Of a DNA stretch of 25,258 nt, positions 372-7,586 are shown piece after piece. Origin of the DNA: a virus. Location of the stretch: positions 1-25,258 of the IMG/VR virus record IMGVR_UViG_3300006919_000396; one strand, 5' to 3'. The position numbers and the translations under genes are program-made. How positions within the stretch are numbered: position 1 is the stretch's first letter; each line of letters opens with the position of its first letter. Under the pieces are notes generated by a model that was not told where the DNA came from, searched no databases, and saw only the letters and a program-made list of their open reading frames with translations.

Positions 372-458
372 TCACATCGGTGCGCTGAAAAGCGCGAGGA
401 CGGAGATCAACACAAGGCCGACCACTGTTCCCCAGAACAGCCACCACAAGACGCTCAC
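372..458 (-). CDS. 28-residue single-pass membrane peptide coupled to the endolysin
   Basis: A GTG start (458-456) overlaps the TGA stop of the endolysin (457-455) in a GTGA arrangement, the classic geometry for translational coupling. The product is 28 residues, almost all hydrophobic: VSVLWWLFWGTVVG, then LVLISVLALFSAPM. It reads as one transmembrane helix with no soluble domain. Its place directly after a muramidase fits a small holin, pinholin or lysis accessory peptide, but no family is recognised. The ORF in this frame extends upstream as a 73-residue frame, but that extension lies entirely inside the endolysin gene and is arginine-rich, the look of a shadow frame. So the short GTG version is preferred. 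Confidence 0.5.
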   Translation of the reverse strand: MSVLWWLFWGTVVGLVLISVLALFSAPM

Positions 459-1234
459 GGCTTCGGCTCGGGCGGCGCTGCGTTGGCCGGTGCAAGGAAC
501 GTCCCGATCAGGCCACCGACCAGCGTCGCCAGCATGTCGATCTGCGTTCCGCTGATCGCGCCATCGGGGATGAACTCGTTCGCGACAGCCCATGTCACCA
601 ACGCGCCGATGAGCGAGCCGAACAGCTTCGAGAAGCGCGCCGGATCAAAGCGAGACTTGGCGACGGTAACCGTAGGCTTCGGAGCGACCGGCGGCTCGAC
701 GCCGACAGGCACGACTTCATCCTTGACCATCGAAAGCGCATTGGCGCGGACGCTTTCAACCCGACGCGACCATCCCTTGCCGAAGAACGGCCACGTGCCG
801 AGACCGCGGAGGAAGTTCATGCGGTCGTCGCACATACGATTGACCGTCACTGCGTCGTCGGCTTCCTCTGCGCTCGCGAGAGTGTTCGGACCGATCTTCC
901 CATCCGCCTTCGCGCCAATCGCTCGCTGGAGCCACCGCGCGCCCCGTGACGGTCCAGAGTTGACCGCACTGTCCATGGCGCAAAGATCCACGCCGCTAGG
1001 CAGCAGGTCGCCCTCCACGACGTTCCAATAGCGCTTGCGGTAAATCTCCCGCGCCTCCTCCTTCGTGAGGTTGCGCACGTCCTCCTTGGTCACCGCCTTG
1101 CCGCGGTAATCGCGGAGGGTGCCGATGGTGATCCCCATATTGGTCGCGCCGCCGGGATCGCGGGCATGATCCACATAGCCGCCTTCGAAAGCGAATATGT
1201 GATCCATCACGGCTTCGAAGTTGGTAGCGGCCAT
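455..1234 (-). CDS. GH108-type endolysin (N-acetylmuramidase) with C-terminal membrane anchor
   Basis: This 259-residue enzyme should cleave the glycan backbone of peptidoglycan at the end of infection. The N-terminal domain (about residues 5-90) has the EGGY motif of glycoside hydrolase family 108, with Glu17 the expected catalytic acid, followed by DPGGATNMGIT and Trp/Tyr-rich IYRKRYW. Residues about 92-170 match the small C-terminal peptidoglycan-binding domain usual in this family (VNSGPSRGARWLQRAIG, DGKIGPNTL). After a proline-rich linker (175-192) come two hydrophobic segments, about 203-221 and 232-250, giving a membrane-anchored or holin-like tail not needed for catalysis. There is no Sec signal peptide. 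The ATG at 1234 follows a GGAG ribosome binding site seven bases upstream. An intrinsic terminator stands immediately upstream. Confidence 0.9.
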   Translation of the reverse strand: MAATNFEAVMDHIFAFEGGYVDHARDPGGATNMGITIGTLRDYRGKAVTKEDVRNLTKEEAREIYRKRYWNVVEGDLLPSGVDLCAMDSAVNSGPSRGARWLQRAIGAKADGKIGPNTLASAEEADDAVTVNRMCDDRMNFLRGLGTWPFFGKGWSRRVESVRANALSMVKDEVVPVGVEPPVAPKPTVTVAKSRFDPARFSKLFGSLIGALVTWAVANEFIPDGAISGTQIDMLATLVGGLIGTFLAPANAAPPEPKP

Positions 1235-1299: not shown

Positions 1300-1515
1300 T
1301 TAGGTCCGGCAGTCATCATCGAAAATTTGCGATGACATCCAGTAATCGACAAGCTCGTTCGGCCCGTCCTTCATTGCGACCAAGCCGTATGGCGCCTTGT
1401 CGTCCAGCTCGCAGAACTTGGTGTAGTAGACGGGCTCTGTCGGCACCGCCCGTTCTGCCTCGAACGTGTAGTAGCCGGGGCCGGTGAACCGCTTTGGGCT
1501 GCGACCTTCCATCAT
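1300..1515 (-). CDS. Hypothetical protein, 71 residues
   Basis: No family recognised. The protein is soluble-looking and rich in aromatic residues (GPGYYTFE, VYYTKF, YWMSSQIFDDD). The chosen ATG (1515-1513) overlaps the TGA of the upstream gene (1514-1512) and follows a GAAGGTGG ribosome binding site. The frame could extend to 1587, but that extension overlaps the upstream gene and has no better start signal. It lies between a small twin-arginine-like protein and the endolysin and ends just before an intrinsic terminator, so it is the last gene of its transcription segment. Confidence 0.65.
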   Translation of the reverse strand: MMEGRSPKRFTGPGYYTFEAERAVPTEPVYYTKFCELDDKAPYGLVAMKDGPNELVDYWMSSQIFDDDCRT

Positions 1516-1886
1516 GCCACCTTCGCGTCGAAGAACTTCAGTGCCGCAGTCAGGAGCGACTGATCGAACGGGTCTCTGCCAGTGCATTCGCTTAGGACCG
1601 CTCGTAAAGCCTCGACTGCGCCCCTGTCCGTTGTGATCGCTGGCGGGTTATCGATGATCTGATCGTAGAGGGGCGAATACGTTACGTCGGCGAGCGCGTC
1701 GGACGCATCGTCGTCTTCCGGCGCGTTTGCGTTGAAGTACGTTATCGCCGCCCGATACCGCTGTATAAGGTCCAGCATAGGGTCGTGTACAAGACTTGCG
1801 GATGCTCCTGCCCCCATCGCGATCGCGGTGTAGGCACCAGCGGTATGGCCGAAGAAGCCACGGCGGGTTATATTCCGGTCAGCCAT
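1512..1886 (-). CDS. Small protein with twin-arginine-like N-terminus, 124 residues
   Basis: Residues 5-11 read NITRRGFFG, close to the Tat consensus (S/T)RRxFLK, followed by a short moderately hydrophobic stretch (AGAYTAIAMGAGASASLV) to about residue 33. The rest is acidic and helical without a recognised domain. The pattern suggests export by the Tat system, but the hydrophobic part is short and the substrate role unknown. The start is well supported by AGGAGG eight to nine bases before the ATG. It is the first gene after the hairpin that follows the Rha-type antirepressor and is coupled by ATGA to the next gene. Function in the phage is unknown; a lysogen-expressed or lysis-associated role is equally possible. 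Confidence 0.65.
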   Translation of the reverse strand: MADRNITRRGFFGHTAGAYTAIAMGAGASASLVHDPMLDLIQRYRAAITYFNANAPEDDDASDALADVTYSPLYDQIIDNPPAITTDRGAVEALRAVLSECTGRDPFDQSLLTAALKFFDAKVA

Positions 1887-1965: not shown

Positions 1966-2703
1966 TCAGGCGGCAGCCGCTACAGGCGGCAAAAGTTTGG
2001 CGAGGACGGTCAGACCTTTCGCAGTCACACGAACCTGAACCGTCTCCTTCTCGCTGCCATCGGCGCGAGTGACGACCGTGATCTTGTGCTCCAGAAGCCC
2101 CGAATTGACCTTCGACTGGTAGCCGAGATCGGTGCTGGTGCCGGCACGCCGGTAAATCCAGTGGTGCTGGCGCATGTAGCTGAACAGGTCCTTCGGACGC
2201 ATCTGCAGGGTCTTCGCCGCATCCGTGATGCAGGTCGAGCCATCCGCCCCTGCGATGCGGTCGAATGCCTGCGCGGTCTCGGCGCCCTCGGCGACCTTCG
2301 CTTCAAGCTCCAGAACGCGTTCCGTGTAGCTGAGAAGCATCCCGCGCATTGCTGCTGGATCGTTCAGAGCGGCGAAGGCGTCCGTCCGCTGCTCCAACTC
2401 CTCCCATCGGTCGATGATCCGAGCGCGCAACTCAATGTTGTAGCCCGAGACGAGGATCAGGCACTCGCGCCGCGGCAACTGGAAGCAGACCAGAGAACGC
2501 CCCGTGTCATCCTTGTACGAGTCCTCGAAAACGCTCGCCTCAATTTTGAGGCCAGTGCACATGGCCCTGATGTCGCGGACCACATTGTCGTGTCGCTTGC
2601 CGGTCAGCTCGGCGATGTCGGTCGAGGACATCGTTTTGATGCCGCCGTCGACAGGTCGCTCTAGCCGGATCGCGGGTAAATGGTTATGTGCTGTGGTGCT
2701 CAT
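1966..2703 (-). CDS. rha: Rha-family phage regulatory protein / antirepressor
   Basis: This 245-residue protein has two parts. Residues about 20-110 match the Rha N-terminal domain (SSTDIAELTGKRHDNVVRDIR, then SLVCFQLPRRECLILVSGYNIELRARIIDRWEELE), a DNA-binding module of phage regulators. Residues about 140-235 match the KilAC/ANT-type C-terminal domain (TDAAKTLQMRPKDLFSYMRQHHWIYRR, then VRVTAKGLTVLAKLL), found in antirepressors. The expected job is to relieve repression of lytic genes, or to modulate host transcription after infection. AAGGA lies six bases before the ATG. The gene shares its strand with the downstream lysis genes. The C-terminal domain order and length are normal for two-domain Rha/Ant fusions. 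Confidence 0.88.
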   Translation of the reverse strand: MSTTAHNHLPAIRLERPVDGGIKTMSSTDIAELTGKRHDNVVRDIRAMCTGLKIEASVFEDSYKDDTGRSLVCFQLPRRECLILVSGYNIELRARIIDRWEELEQRTDAFAALNDPAAMRGMLLSYTERVLELEAKVAEGAETAQAFDRIAGADGSTCITDAAKTLQMRPKDLFSYMRQHHWIYRRAGTSTDLGYQSKVNSGLLEHKITVVTRADGSEKETVQVRVTAKGLTVLAKLLPPVAAAA

Positions 2704-2763: not shown

Positions 2764-2802
2764 GCGACGGGGCCGAGGTTCCTAGGCCGCCTGCCCCGTC
2801 GC
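2764..2802 (-). terminator. Ten-base-pair perfect inverted repeat at the end of the minus-strand RHH gene
   Basis: GCGACGGGGC (2764-2773) and GCCCCGTCGC (2793-2802) are perfectly complementary with a 19-base spacer that holds the stop codon of the RHH gene. No U tract follows. A terminator is the simplest reading; a protein-binding palindrome is possible. Confidence 0.4.
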
Positions 2803-2949
2803 TCTGGTGTCCTGGGCCAAGCGCAGCGCCTGCACCACAAGAGCGTTTTGCGAAACGGCTTCGCGCCGTGATCTCTTTTCAAGCCAGAGTTTCAAATCCG
2901 CCGGAAGGCGGACAATCAATCTCGGCAGTTCGTCGCTGGGGTAAGCCAT
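2782..2949 (-). CDS. Ribbon-helix-helix (Arc-type) DNA-binding protein, 55 residues
   Basis: The core [35 protein letters not shown] is the Arc/MetJ fold: a short beta strand (LIVRLP) that reads DNA as a dimer, then two helices. It is expected to be a small dimeric repressor. The ATG at 2949 follows a good GGAG site. The frame runs upstream to 3024, but that extension ([13 protein letters not shown]) is only the translation of direct repeats in the promoter region, so it is rejected. The gene is divergent from a second RHH gene at 3055, and the shared intergenic region carries a repeated element likely to be an operator. It may regulate the plus-strand cassette, the antirepressor, or both. 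An antitoxin role is less likely because no toxin-like partner is adjacent. Confidence 0.8.
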
Positions 2950-2963
2950 CGTATCTCCATATT

Positions 2964-3001
2964 CCGAGTTGGCATCACTGTCATCTGCCGAGTCGGCATC
3001 A
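2964..3001. promoter_or_regulatory. Direct-repeat operator candidate between divergent RHH genes
   Basis: CCGAGTTGGCATCA (2964-2977) and CCGAGTCGGCATCA (2988-3001) are 14-base direct repeats with 13 identities, spaced 24 bases start to start. The similarity continues weakly beyond them (CTGTCAT versus ATGACAA). RHH proteins bind direct or inverted repeats on such spacing. A further perfect palindrome GCGCTAGCGC lies at 3038-3047. No convincing sigma-70 promoter is seen, though TTGTCA (minus strand, 3008-3003) could be a -35 element. Confidence 0.55.
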
Positions 3002-3054: not shown

Positions 3055-3417
3055 ATGTCGAAGAAGCCCTACCCCAGCGAGACCGCCGACCGGTTCATTG
3101 TCCGCCTTCCAGAAGGGATGAGGGACCGCATTCGCGATTCCGCTGACGCGAATGGTCGGTCAATGAATGCCGAGATCATTCGGCGCCTCGAAGTCACATT
3201 CGACATGGAGGAAACTGAGAAGACGCTCCCGTACCGTTTCTCGGAACTGGACGAGAAGATCGATAAGCTCGACAGGCTCCTTGCAATGACACTTGATGCA
3301 ATCTCCTCGCCCGAGTCAGAGGCGGATGTCGCTTTCGCCGTCGAGGAGTTCGAGCGCCGGATGCGTGACAACCTCGCTGCGCATAAGAAGATCGTGAAGC
3401 GGCAGCGAAAGACTTAG
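3055..3417 (+). CDS. Ribbon-helix-helix (Arc-type) regulator with extended C-terminus, 120 residues
   Basis: Residues about 8-50 match the Arc domain of phage repressors: [35 protein letters not shown], with the DNA-reading strand FIVRLP and the helix-turn NGRSMNAEI typical of Arc itself. The remaining 70 residues are charged and helical ([13 protein letters not shown], then [11 protein letters not shown]) and probably form a coiled-coil oligomerisation tail. The ATG at 3055 has no ribosome binding site; a GTG at 3049 is no better, so the mRNA may be leaderless or weakly translated. It is the first plus-strand gene and divergent from the other RHH gene. It probably controls the divergent promoters and perhaps the glycosyltransferase cassette downstream. 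Confidence 0.85.
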
Positions 3418-3464
3418 CCCCTCCCCTCATGCAGGCGCACGAAAGCGCGCCCCTGTGCGGTGCG

Positions 3465-3492
3465 TTGCATGGTGTTTCTCCTGTGGTATGGA
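3465..3492 (+). promoter_or_regulatory. Weak promoter candidate for the plus-strand cassette
   Basis: TTGCAT (3465-3470) and TATGGA (3487-3492) are spaced 16 bases apart and lie 26 bases before the start of the small gene at 3518. Both hexamers deviate from consensus and the match was found by eye, so this is tentative. A promoter in the 3418-3517 gap would let the cassette be expressed in the lysogen, apart from the late operon. Confidence 0.25.
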
Positions 3493-3517
3493 AACTCGAC
3501 TAGAGAGGGCGGATTTT

Positions 3518-3721
3518 ATGCACAGCAGCTACAAGGACCCAGAGCCTTTCGGCCTGCCGCGCGATGAGGATGGATGGACGGTGACGAACCTGTTCGGCCG
3601 CATCGTCTGTTTCAGCGATAAGCACGGGTCAGCCGCCGTGGTGAACGGGCGGGTGACGCAGAGGGCGTCGAAGGCGGAGACGCGGCAGACAGTGGCCGAG
3701 ATCGTATCGCTCGGCGAATGA
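3518..3721 (+). CDS. Hypothetical protein, 67 residues, leading the glycosyltransferase cassette
   Basis: No family recognised. The protein has a pattern of short beta strands (GWTVTNLFGRIVCFSD, HGSAAVVNGRVTQRA) and a short C-terminal helix. The ATG at 3518 has an AGAGAGGG site eight to ten bases upstream, the same kind of site as that before the 5431 gene. An earlier in-frame ATG at 3488 lacks one. Its TGA overlaps the ATG of the membrane glycosyltransferase (ATGA at 3718-3721), so the two are translated together and probably work together, for example as a small regulatory or chaperone subunit. That role is inference only. Confidence 0.65.
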   Translation: MHSSYKDPEPFGLPRDEDGWTVTNLFGRIVCFSDKHGSAAVVNGRVTQRASKAETRQTVAEIVSLGE

Positions 3722-5418
3722 CCCGCACCGATTACTATGCGCTTGGAGCGATCCTGCTCGTCGTTTCAGCACTGCTGCTGGCGGTTCCGGCGATAGCCAT
3801 CACCGGAGACGAGCCGAGGTACATCCTGTTTGCCGCCAGCATCTGGGAATACGGGGCGCTTGTCATGCCGGCAGCCGAATGGGTTCAGCATTCGTCCGCA
3901 TGGCTGGGTTACCAGATGGATGCCCTGCCCGCCTTAGGGGACGGTGCGATCCTCGGTCATCCAATCTACGTCACAGCCCTATTGTCACCGTTTGCGGAGT
4001 TTGGGACGGCGGGGCTTCGCGCGACGGGATTGATCGTCGGGCTGCTGGGTCTAACCGCGCTTTACGTCGCGATGCGGCACGCCGTTGGGCTGGTTCCGGC
4101 GTCGATCGCAACCCTGTGTGCTGGTCTGCTGTTTCCGCTGGTTCCATACCTACACACCTTCTGGGCAGAGGTCTTCATCTTCGCGGGCATCGCTGCGGGC
4201 CTAATGCAGCTACCCCGCGCAGGCGAAAGCAGATTCTCCGATCTCTGGCGCGGAGCCATCATTCTCGTCATCCCGTTCATCCACCTACGCGGTGCGGTGA
4301 TCGGTGCCGCGATATTCCTCGCGTTCTTCCTGCGGGTCTACCATAGCGCCGGGCTCGACTTCAGAAGGCTGGCCCCGTTGGCATTGCTCGCCGCCGCTTT
4401 CGCCCTGCTGCTCATAGGCCTGAACATCTTCGTCTACGGCTCTCCGATCGGCTCCGTGACCACCGCCCGGCCGCCGTCGTTGTTTGAAGTCTACGATGTC
4501 GTGGCGACAAACCTTGTGACCGTGAAGGGCCTCCTGCCATACGCTCCGATCTGGGTCCTCGGCTACGCTGGGCTGATAGCGGGAGCCGTTCGCCGAGAAC
4601 GGCTTGTCGTTGAGTGCAGCGCTTTCGCGATCGTGGCGCTCCTCACATCGATCGGAATCAACCCGGGTGAAGGAGCGCCGGGACGATTCCTCATCGCCTC
4701 CGTCCCCATGCTTGCCATCGGGCTGGCCTACTGGCTTTCGCGCTCAGACAATCGGTGGCAATGGCTACTGACATCCGTGCTTCTGGTGCTGTCCCTGGTG
4801 CACACGGCCGTATTCATCGTGCGCCCAAATCTGCATCTGGAGAACCGGCAGTCAGATGTCGTGTTCCAGCACATATTTGACCGGATCGGCCTGTTCAACT
4901 TCGGCTTGTCCGCTCCGGTCGAAGGGCTCGACACGGGTTTGGGGAGAGCTTTCCTTCTGATCGTTTGCCTGCTGGCTGTTCTAGCAGCAACATCCATCAT
5001 CTACGCTCGGCGACGATTTGCCGTGGCGGGGTTCCTGCTGGCGCTCGGCTTGCTGGAGATGACAAGGGCGAGCGAGATACCCGTTCAACCCACGATCGAG
5101 GGCGGCGTCTTGACCGCAGCGCTCCCGACGACACCTGGGCAAGTCTCGATGATCTTCGGGAAGCCATGGGAGCGCTGGTACGCACCGCCTTATCCGCTGA
5201 TAAACAGCACGACGTCGATCCCCGGAGGGTTTGTCGAGCAGGACACCCGCCCGGCCAACCCGATATTCTCCGAAGCGTGCTTCCGAGGAATTGATACGAT
5301 GACGCTGCAATCCTCCGGCATTGACCTTGCCGCCGCCTCGAAGTTCCGCCTGCGCGCTTTTGAGACGGCTTCGGTGTTGAAACGGTCCTATATCCGATTC
5401 ATGCAGATATGCGACTGA
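3718..5418 (+). CDS. GT-C-type multi-pass membrane glycosyltransferase (putative surface-glycan modification)
   Basis: This 566-residue protein has about ten to twelve hydrophobic segments. The first (residues about 8-28) is followed by ITGDEPRY (about 29-35), the acidic Asp31-Glu32 pair in the first periplasmic loop expected at the active site of GT-C enzymes such as ArnT and PMT relatives. These use lipid-linked sugars on the outer face of the inner membrane. A roughly 110-residue C-terminal soluble region follows the last helix. The gene lies on the opposite strand to the late operon, convergent with the tailspike gene. This is the usual place and orientation for lysogenic-conversion genes that change the O-antigen receptor. 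No GtrA flippase or GtrB bactoprenol transferase accompanies it, so it would have to use host lipid-linked sugars. The specific substrate cannot be read from the sequence. Confidence 0.75.
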   Translation: MTRTDYYALGAILLVVSALLLAVPAIAITGDEPRYILFAASIWEYGALVMPAAEWVQHSSAWLGYQMDALPALGDGAILGHPIYVTALLSPFAEFGTAGLRATGLIVGLLGLTALYVAMRHAVGLVPASIATLCAGLLFPLVPYLHTFWAEVFIFAGIAAGLMQLPRAGESRFSDLWRGAIILVIPFIHLRGAVIGAAIFLAFFLRVYHSAGLDFRRLAPLALLAAAFALLLIGLNIFVYGSPIGSVTTARPPSLFEVYDVVATNLVTVKGLLPYAPIWVLGYAGLIAGAVRRERLVVECSAFAIVALLTSIGINPGEGAPGRFLIASVPMLAIGLAYWLSRSDNRWQWLLTSVLLVLSLVHTAVFIVRPNLHLENRQSDVVFQHIFDRIGLFNFGLSAPVEGLDTGLGRAFLLIVCLLAVLAATSIIYARRRFAVAGFLLALGLLEMTRASEIPVQPTIEGGVLTAALPTTPGQVSMIFGKPWERWYAPPYPLINSTTSIPGGFVEQDTRPANPIFSEACFRGIDTMTLQSSGIDLAAASKFRLRAFETASVLKRSYIRFMQICD

Positions 5419-5430
5419 GAGAGGGCGGCC

Positions 5431-5601
5431 GTGCTTAAGAACATCACGACACAGCAACTGTGGGCCATCGCCGCCGCCCTACTCTTCATCGTGGTGACGA
5501 ACTTTCTCCGAACGCCCGACACGCGCTCGTTTGACGAGATCAACAGGGATATGACCGAAGCCGCGACCTTCAAAAGAAGCGCGGCCTCGGCACTCCATTA
5601 G
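5431..5601 (+). CDS. Small single-pass membrane protein, 56 residues
   Basis: The GTG start at 5431 follows GAGAGAGGGCGG, which matches the site before the gene at 3518, and lies 12 bases after the glycosyltransferase stop. The product has one clear membrane helix (about residues 10-26, LWAIAAALLFIVVTNFL) and a charged C-terminal tail (TRSFDEINRDMTEAATFKRS). Its TAG (5599-5601) overlaps the TAA of the convergent tailspike gene, so the two share bases 5598-5600. No family is recognised. Co-transcription with a membrane glycosyltransferase suggests a partner or regulator in the same membrane complex; a superinfection-exclusion peptide is an alternative. Confidence 0.6.
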   Translation: MLKNITTQQLWAIAAALLFIVVTNFLRTPDTRSFDEINRDMTEAATFKRSAASALH

Positions 5602-7586
5602 ACCGCCTCGTACTCGACCGTCAGTGTGATGGTCTGGCTGTCGCCTGGATAGGCACCAGTAGGACCGTTGATGAAGAACGAGGTTCCGCCCGCGCTGATC
5701 GCCGCCCCCACCATGCCGAGAGAACTGTTGTTCTTCCCGCTGCCGCTGCCGCCGACAGACGCAGTGAACGGCGCGGTGACGGTGATCGCCCCACTGCCAC
5801 CTGTCCCCGTAGTGATGAGCAGCCGGACGGTGGTCCAATTTCCTCGGCGGGTGTAGCTTGCATTGATCGTAGCGCCAGACGGCGCACCGCCAGTTGACGA
5901 GATGGTCGCGGCATACGTTCGCATCTCTGGCGTCTCGATGATACCTCCACCGCCGTAGGCTGTCGGGGCCGTGGTGGCAGGCTTGGAAAGCAGCCGAATG
6001 CGATTGCCGGCCTGTGCAATGAATTCCGTACCCCCGATGGAAAGGCTTTCGGAATTTCCGATCGTCATCAGGTTGCCGGTGCCTTCGAGCCGAACCGCGC
6101 CGACCGTCGACCGGAAACAGATAAGATCGTTGATATGAATGCGCCCGCCGTCGCCGAACATGCGCAGTCCTTCGACGGCTGGTGTCGGAACCTGCCCCGC
6201 ATGAATGAACCTATCGAAGTGCATCGTCGTGTTGTCGGACAGCGTGAGCAGCCCTGTCGTACACCCGTCAGAATAGAATGAACCGGCGCGGAGTAGGTTG
6301 ACACCGCCGCCCGGCATCACGCCACCGCCCGGCAGAGCAACATCAGCTTGTTCGTAAGCTACGAGGCTGGTTCCCATGCCATAGATGAAGATGCGTCCGA
6401 AGTCTGCGTTATCGAAGCGGCCAAGTTTGATCGCTTCCGAGTTCGCATTGACCCATGAAGTCACGTCAGGATCAAACGACCAGAAAGGCCAAAAGTGAAT
6501 TTCATCCCACATACAGGTGTCGTAGACGTTCGTTGCCTCGATACCCTGGACGAGCGGCTGGCCCTTGATGTTATTGAGGGTCACTCGACCCGAGCCGAGC
6601 CCGTTGGCCGTCCCCTTGAGGCGAATTGCGCGAGATGAATTCAGGAACATAACGTCCTCGACGTTCACATCGTAGGCGCCTTGGATGTCAATATCGAAGT
6701 CATGTGCGGCCGGGACGAAGCCGGGTCCAATGGCCGGCTGGGTGCGGCGGAAGTTGACGCCCTTGATGCTGCGGTTTGTCGAGCCACCGCCGTCCGAGAT
6801 GCTTTCGGCGGTGGTGATGAAGCCGACGCCGCCGTGCGTGATGTGGAAGTACGTGAAAGTGCCGTTAAGTTCACGCCCTGCCTGCCCGCTACCAACGATG
6901 TGAGCGCCGGACGGCCAAGTGATGGGGCTGTCGAGCGCGATGGTGTTTGCAGGAAAATGAAGCGGCTTGCCCTCGGCTCCTACGGCTGTAACGGCACTTT
7001 GCACCGTCGCGGCTTCGTCATTCGCGCCGGTCAAATCGACGCCATCCCAATCGCGAATGTCAGCTCGGTCCCACAGCTTGCTCTCTGTCGTGCGAATGGC
7101 TGGTGAGGCAATAGGCGCCTCGAAGACACCCGAAGCGCCGGCATCCCCCGTTGGCTGAAACGACAGCAGAACCGTGTCGCCATCCTCAAACGGGCTGGTC
7201 TCGCTCGCCGCGATATTTGAGCCTGTGATGTTACGATAGCCGGCAGGGCTGGCAACCGAAGACGCCTCAAAGGTTAGCCACTTCGTCGGGTCGCCGACCG
7301 CATAGAGGCGGGCAAAGCCCTTCACCGGGTTCGTGCTGTCATCAAAGGCATCCAGAATGCCGGAAACGTCCACGCCGTTGATGTCGAGCGTGTCCGCGCG
7401 GATTGTTAGCGCCGCGTCTTGCTGGGTGGCAGACAGCCTCAGTTTGCCGTTGCCGGGATCGCTGTCCGTGATCGTGGTGGAGAACACATAGCGGATCGCC
7501 AGTGCGCCCAGATCCACGTCGAGATTGACAGTGCGAGACGCGAAGGAGGGAACCGTCAGCGTGTTGGCTGGGCGGATTTCAAGCAT
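5598..7586 (-). CDS. Tailspike / tail fibre with right-handed beta-helix (pectate-lyase-like)
   Basis: This 662-residue protein is the likely receptor-binding, glycan-degrading tail appendage. Residues 1 to about 150 are a beta-rich attachment region. At about residue 182 begins the block typical of pectate-lyase-superfamily tailspikes (WDGVDLTGANDEAATVQSAV, then LHFPANTIALDSPI and GAHIVGSG). Short beta-helix rungs with many Asn, Gly and Val follow to about residue 560. The last 90 residues are a glycine- and threonine-rich beta domain (WTTVRLLITTGTGGSGAITV) that probably forms the trimeric tip. The ATG at 7586 has GGAG seven to ten bases upstream; the longer frame to 7625 starts inside a terminator and is rejected. 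No catalytic residues can be assigned by eye. Its neighbour on the other strand is a surface-glycan glycosyltransferase. Confidence 0.8.
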   Translation of the reverse strand: MLEIRPANTLTVPSFASRTVNLDVDLGALAIRYVFSTTITDSDPGNGKLRLSATQQDAALTIRADTLDINGVDVSGILDAFDDSTNPVKGFARLYAVGDPTKWLTFEASSVASPAGYRNITGSNIAASETSPFEDGDTVLLSFQPTGDAGASGVFEAPIASPAIRTTESKLWDRADIRDWDGVDLTGANDEAATVQSAVTAVGAEGKPLHFPANTIALDSPITWPSGAHIVGSGQAGRELNGTFTYFHITHGGVGFITTAESISDGGGSTNRSIKGVNFRRTQPAIGPGFVPAAHDFDIDIQGAYDVNVEDVMFLNSSRAIRLKGTANGLGSGRVTLNNIKGQPLVQGIEATNVYDTCMWDEIHFWPFWSFDPDVTSWVNANSEAIKLGRFDNADFGRIFIYGMGTSLVAYEQADVALPGGGVMPGGGVNLLRAGSFYSDGCTTGLLTLSDNTTMHFDRFIHAGQVPTPAVEGLRMFGDGGRIHINDLICFRSTVGAVRLEGTGNLMTIGNSESLSIGGTEFIAQAGNRIRLLSKPATTAPTAYGGGGIIETPEMRTYAATISSTGGAPSGATINASYTRRGNWTTVRLLITTGTGGSGAITVTAPFTASVGGSGSGKNNSSLGMVGAAISAGGTSFFINGPTGAYPGDSQTITLTVEYEAV

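Follow-up and report, generated by a model that had tools for sequence, protein, structure and literature searches.

Do genes that a phage keeps on the strand opposite to its late genes, next to the tail spike, serve to change the host surface during lysogeny, and if so, do they form a new type of conversion module? The question is raised by IMGVR_UViG_3300006919_000396, a 25,258-bp IMG/VR virus fragment with a siphophage gene set, the whole of which we analysed and refer to as the window (near-identical records: L002 and L009). Its minus-strand late genes encode TerL, portal, ClpP protease, capsid (MCP), tape measure (TMP), tip, spike and a GH108 endolysin. The four plus-strand ORFs proposed by the first-pass annotation – a regulator of 120 aa, sm67 of 67 aa, a membrane protein of 566 aa and sm56 of 56 aa – are borne out by the ORF calls as antisense to the late genes (Table 1); our own gene-finding script, which we used for all gene calls outside annotated records, calls all four, the regulator with a later start. 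The group is indeed convergent with the spike, the stop codons of sm56 and the spike gene overlapping (TTAG, 5598–5601), and it does lie between lysis and tail genes, although Ant, RHHm and two small genes intervene before the endolysin is reached. There is no integrase in the 25,258-bp fragment, while the sister phage L012 has one; Rfam and tRNA scans yielded no matches.

Table 1. Features on either side of, and within, the gap between the tail spike and lysis genes (window coordinates)
Feature	Position	Strand	Basis
GH108 endolysin, lysis side of the region	455..1234	-	PF05838, 9.5e-29
Ant antirepressor, Rha and KilAC domains	1966..2703	-	PF03374, 7e-29; PF09669, 3.5e-19
RHHm, small ribbon-helix-helix-like protein, divergent from RHHp	2782..2964	-	weak PHROG Arc-type matches
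RHHp, Arc/Mnt-type regulator, 120 aa	3055..3417	+	PF03869, 3.9e-16
Putative lysozyme-start remnant, lysis-side border of the slot	3416..3470	-	45 bp identical to L012 15690-15734
sm67, first cassette gene, 67 aa, no hydrophobic segment (soluble)	3518..3721	+	RBS-like GAGAGGG upstream
GT-C-type membrane glycosyltransferase, 566 aa	3718..5418	+	NF047440 match, L179 homologue, Foldseek matches
sm56, last cassette gene, 56 aa, one hydrophobic segment	5431..5601	+	GTG start behind GAGAGGGCGG
Tail spike	5598..7586	-	pectin-lyase-like beta-helix matches in C-terminal part

A single island of four genes, regulator included, is not supported; the genes fall into two modules. Together with the divergent minus-strand RHHm and then Ant, the plus-strand RHHp makes up a set like immI of P22 (mnt, arc, ant). 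A homologous RHHp/RHHm/Ant set without GT-C sits inside the tail region of L155 (Rhodobacter), and a looser version, with a similar divergent RHH pair and Ant but without a glycosyltransferase, is present in L097. Since homologous trios occur without GT-C, and since a lysozyme remnant separates the regulator from sm67, the Arc-type regulator is, judging by gene context, part of the Ant module and separate from the cassette. We also note a 124-aa protein (1512–1886, minus strand) with a twin-arginine-like start (RRGF) that adjoins Ant; in L155 and L137 the small proteins flanking Ant begin in much the same way (NRRNLL, NRRGF), and this protein type is a possible constant partner of the antirepressor.

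The element that separates the two modules (3416–3470) reads M(Q/D)(R/T)(T/S)... on the late strand in both the window and L012. It resembles SPRGRAFTRGHEG at the lysozyme gene starts of L015 (Phage_lysozyme) and L100; the lysozyme that lies beyond the slot in these two phages starts ITTTSPRGRAFTRGHEG, and the element is similar to those first residues. It is best read as the remnant of a lysozyme start. In L012 (15682–15736) the remnant overlaps the start of the GH19 endolysin gene (TGATG), and may for this reason have become a leader peptide coupled to it.

The cassette proper, sm67 / GT-C / sm56, spans 3518–5601 and fills the gap from spike to lysis genes. The sm67 stop codon overlaps the GT-C start (ATGA, 3718–3721), which suggests that the two are translationally coupled, and the ribosome-binding stretch GAGAGGGCGG is common to sm67 and sm56. 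The GC content of the cassette resembles that of the phage. A sigma-70 scan of the region found no promoter-like sites, and terminator matches were at chance level. Searches of Pfam, PHROGs and NCBIfam gave no match for sm67, and no homologue of either small protein was detected. In phages, all three cassette genes were found as identical copies only.

The 566-aa protein contains about 8–12 hydrophobic segments and has no Pfam or PHROG match. Near residue 30 it carries the motif GDEPRY, of which GDE and RY (positions 30–35) are invariant across four homologues; the acidic motif is in the first loop, assumed to be on the periplasmic side. The NCBIfam model NF047440, which describes the LA_3751/LA_3752 family of putative glycosyltransferases, matches GT-C residues 20–363 (8.7e-9) as well as L179 (6.1e-11), yet both matches, at 35–42 bits, are far below the curated cut-off of 200. 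Three chromosomal homologues (L179, L180 and L182) were found among the ~1,180 alphaproteobacterial genomes searched. L179, 35–37% identical over the full length, belongs to a sugar-nucleotide cluster, where it sits 5′ of genes for a nucleotidyltransferase, a dehydratase, DegT and TPP proteins and a GT2 enzyme resembling GtrB; L182 adjoins genes for a GtrB-like GT2, GtrA (PF04138) and PMT_2; and L180 is an isolated gene. The GT2 genes beside these homologues are ArnC/PgfS-like. Sequence searches with GT-C found nothing in the phages, genome_contigs or plasmids sets (in the last case with the L179 homologue also used as query) and only the identical copy in viral_contigs, and the GT-C profile matched no PDB sequence. 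AlphaFold prediction reached a pLDDT of 42 from the single sequence and 44 from a four-sequence alignment, and the model is therefore taken as a class hint only: with the latter, the top four Foldseek matches were ALG12, ALG9 and ArnT (two entries), with probability 0.97–0.99, E 0.009–0.03 and TM 0.26–0.35, and no PDB match reached E 0.001 with this low-confidence model. The GT-C class proposed by the first-pass annotation is thus supported by the GDEPRY motif, by weak ALG12/ALG9/ArnT fold matches of a poor model and by chromosomal homologues beside GtrB-like genes. Its remark that gtrA and gtrB are missing also agrees with our searches: neither the 25-kb record nor a near-identical one contains a GtrA (PF04138) or GT2/GtrB (PF00535) domain, an absence that, the record being a fragment, applies to the 25,258 bp and not to the whole phage.

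The arrangement has close counterparts in classic seroconverting phages. In Salmonella phage epsilon15 the spike gene is followed by the minus-strand polymerase and inhibitor genes (gp22, O-antigen polymerase; gp21, inhibitor) and then by holin and endolysin. As in the window, these conversion genes lie between spike and holin/endolysin, antisense to the late genes and convergent with the spike, and combine a large membrane enzyme with a small membrane protein; the differences are that a polymerase takes the place of GT-C, that the small gene (66 aa, two TM segments) comes first, and that no immI-like module adjoins. Pseudomonas phage D3 has the order tail gene, iap (minus), O-acetylase (plus), wzy-beta (minus), HNH gene, endolysin: here too the tail-to-endolysin gap is occupied, iap and wzy-beta are antisense to the late genes, and iap, like sm56, is a gene for a tiny one-TM protein next to a tail gene. 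D3 differs in swapping a polymerase in combination with an inhibitor, in an extra same-strand acetylase and in being without GT-C. Its unit makes the host resistant to superinfection (PMC4815439). In Salmonella phage P22, gtrC-gtrB-gtrA directly follow the spike gene and are convergent with it, and mnt and arc-ant are beside the spike as well. P22 GtrC is a serotype-specific membrane glycosyltransferase (PMC3688519), and the GtrABC proteins block adsorption (PMC10883804). However, P22 has gtrA and gtrB, none of which are in our record, its cassette is bordered by attP/int instead of lysis genes, and its immI flanks the other end of the spike gene than the immI-like set of the window does.

The nearest annotated relative is the Nostoc phage Nsp-JY10 (L015, PP395642), which in the same slot and on the same strand as the cassette encodes a Wzy-like protein of 443 aa and a 45-aa one-TM protein; it differs in that the enzyme belongs to another family, both genes are annotated as hypothetical and the lysozyme gene comes directly next. 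The recorded host of this phage is Nostoc, while most relatives of the tip protein are found in Alphaproteobacteria; the phage may for this reason really infect a bacterium that lives in association with the cyanobacterium. sm56 is placed as the 45-aa gene of Nsp-JY10 and D3 iap are, and comparison by eye revealed no sequence similarity between it and either product. We considered and rejected a general rule of enzyme plus peptide, as small TM genes like sm56 are clear only in Nsp-JY10, D3 and epsilon15, with a weaker candidate in L040.

Taken as a whole, the window fits the D3/epsilon15 layout, with a predicted surface-glycan enzyme on the opposite strand between the last tail gene and the lysis genes, and with the Ant module added on the lysis side; GT-C has the position of P22 gtrC beside the spike and is probably of the GtrC class. 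The layout is therefore not new – D3 and epsilon15 keep proven seroconversion genes in this gap and P22 gtrC directly follows the spike – and the suggestion of a new type of conversion module is not supported, its location, orientation and logic being already known from these three phages.

How common is such an arrangement among relatives? Defining the gap as running from the tip gene to the first lysin-like gene, and collecting tip-protein relatives from viral contigs and bacterial genomes, we obtained, after removal of duplicates, 78 distinct gaps (362 kb), mostly of alphaproteobacterial phages; 658 kb upstream of the tip gene served as the comparison set. Opposite-strand genes of at least 200 aa number 35 in the gaps (26 gaps have them) versus one upstream of the tip (binomial p 4e-15), and opposite-strand ORFs of this length with at least four TM segments number 11 versus none (binomial p 1e-5), both tests treating the loci as independent, without tree correction. 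Surface-glycan enzymes are found or predicted in 18/78 gaps: the window, L123 and L128 (both with multi-TM proteins without a Pfam match), and 15 gaps in which Pfam recognises opposite-strand enzymes of surface polysaccharides (L015, with a Wzy_C match below cut-off, L031, L039, L040, L041, L046, L047, L057, L066, L100, L107, L115, L120, L161 and L164). The multi-TM gene of L128 adjoins GT2, DUF2304 and EamA genes. Among the relatives with slot genes, L100 (Rhizobium rhizophilum), L107 (Devosia soli) and L128 (Mesorhizobium) come from cultured bacteria. L149 has an AT3 gene, but the contig ends before any lysin. The Pfam matches of gap genes comprise AT3 acyltransferases, GT1/2/4/8, Wzy_C, Wzz, pyruvyl transferase, polysialyltransferase, Stealth, an ABC-2 exporter and a sulfatase-fold transferase; other gaps contain methyltransferases, an AAA_15 gene, HNH, P63C or genes of no assigned function.

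Several individual gaps deserve mention. That of L161 (15627–19856, minus) contains a larger conversion set of GT2, pyruvyl transferase and AT3 acyltransferase genes; L040 (14631–16283, minus) encodes a sulfatase-fold membrane protein, possibly an EptA-like LPS phosphoethanolamine transferase; and L048 (14776–16407, minus) encodes an AAA_15/AAA_21 ATPase, possibly a defence gene. In Rhizobium phage 16-3 (L016, 12457–12891) the immX genes (immXl and immXu) are in the gap after a spike-like gene, and since they sit there, the spike/lysis gap may host other superinfection functions too.

The first-pass annotation had suggested a survey of whether spike and GT-C covary across phages. L012 has a tip 79% identical to that of the window and a spike with an 84% identical N-terminal anchor and an unrelated C-terminus; it lacks the regulator/Ant genes as well as the cassette, their place being taken by a same-strand gene of 376 aa and a GH19-type endolysin gene. 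Among the pairs of phages listed with tips at least 88% identical, the spikes usually agree over the N-terminus (~190 residues) and usually differ over the C-terminus, and it is rare for opposite-strand genes to be shared. Spike and opposite-strand genes are thus both swapped between the close relatives listed, but not in lockstep: L043 and L063 have spikes that are 98% identical and opposite-strand genes that differ. This pair rules out strict covariation and makes the link between spike and cassette a loose one.

We consider it likely, from sequence context and by analogy with the classic phages, that the sm67 / GT-C / sm56 cassette serves lysogenic conversion, with GT-C as an orphan GtrC-like enzyme using a lipid-linked sugar of the host. 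The surface-glycan role originally proposed is, by this analogy, well supported by the gap context in relatives and the D3/epsilon15 seroconversion genes, but has lost the attributes of a self-regulated island and of a new module type. In our model, the phage would be a temperate siphophage of an alphaproteobacterium, and the cassette, because it is read against the late genes, could be on in the lysogen while these are silent. GT-C, in the inner membrane, would draw on a sugar linked to polyprenyl phosphate and, facing the periplasm, transfer it to the polysaccharide recognised by the spike, so that phages of the same type would adsorb badly to lysogens. Host proteins of the GtrB/GtrA type would make the carrier-bound sugar and flip it across the membrane, a host supply that we assume because the record is without donor-making genes.

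More speculatively, sm56 could act like D3 Iap in damping a competing host enzyme, sm67 could be a coupled leader or an assembly factor, and read-through from the promoter of the Arc-type regulator could drive the cassette in lysogens, as RHHp precedes it in the same orientation and no strong terminator separates the two. In P22, sieA is downstream of mnt in the same orientation (PMC10883804), which makes it conceivable that transcripts begun at a Mnt-like promoter in the window run on into an exclusion gene. The full combination – a lone GT-C supplied with host lipid-linked sugar, sm56 blocking a competing host transferase and read-through from a Mnt-like regulator – would mean that side-branch glycosyltransferases can follow the replace-and-inhibit logic that D3 applies to polymerases, and we regard it as doubtful.

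The same chemistry could also serve the lysogen itself, altering the host surface to its benefit (stress, grazing, plant or biofilm life) with superinfection exclusion being incidental. While this would sit well with gap genes for enzymes not obviously directed at one receptor (methyltransferases, Wzz, ABC exporter), and with one spike accompanied by two different gap-gene sets (L043, L063), the gap directly adjoins the spike gene, the spike C-terminus and the gap genes differ together in the comparison with L012 and in most of the close pairs listed, and the D3 gap genes give superinfection resistance (PMC4815439); we consider incidental exclusion unlikely.

The scattered homologues of GT-C, rare in bacterial chromosomes, and the recombination scar at the slot border would be expected if a host gene had simply been captured at a recombination hot spot and had little or no function for the phage. 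Intact frames, apparent translational coupling, phage-like GC content, the tight fit of the convergent stops and the repeated filling of the gap with one functional class make such a passenger very unlikely. Least of all do we expect the enzyme to glycosylate a phage or host protein, or to act on a lipid, in place of a surface polysaccharide: although some GT-C enzymes (PMT, OST, ArnT) glycosylate proteins or lipid A, and the low-confidence model weakly resembles ArnT and OST, the closest homologue, L179, is accompanied by nucleotidyltransferase, dehydratase, DegT and TPP genes, as for a polysaccharide deoxysugar, and the relatives in the gap are polysaccharide enzymes.

With lysogenic conversion by a GtrC-like enzyme as the preferred reading, the phage conversion repertoire would gain a glycosyltransferase family without a matching Pfam model. 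The spike/lysis gap of two classic seroconverting phages is a hot spot for enzymes of polysaccharide metabolism in a large phage group that has received little study, its hosts being mostly Alphaproteobacteria from soil or associated with plants, and for which we found little conversion work in the literature; as far as our literature searches went, it is the breadth of gap genes in alphaproteobacterial phages that is new, and not their location. The gap also offers a simple rule for finding conversion genes.
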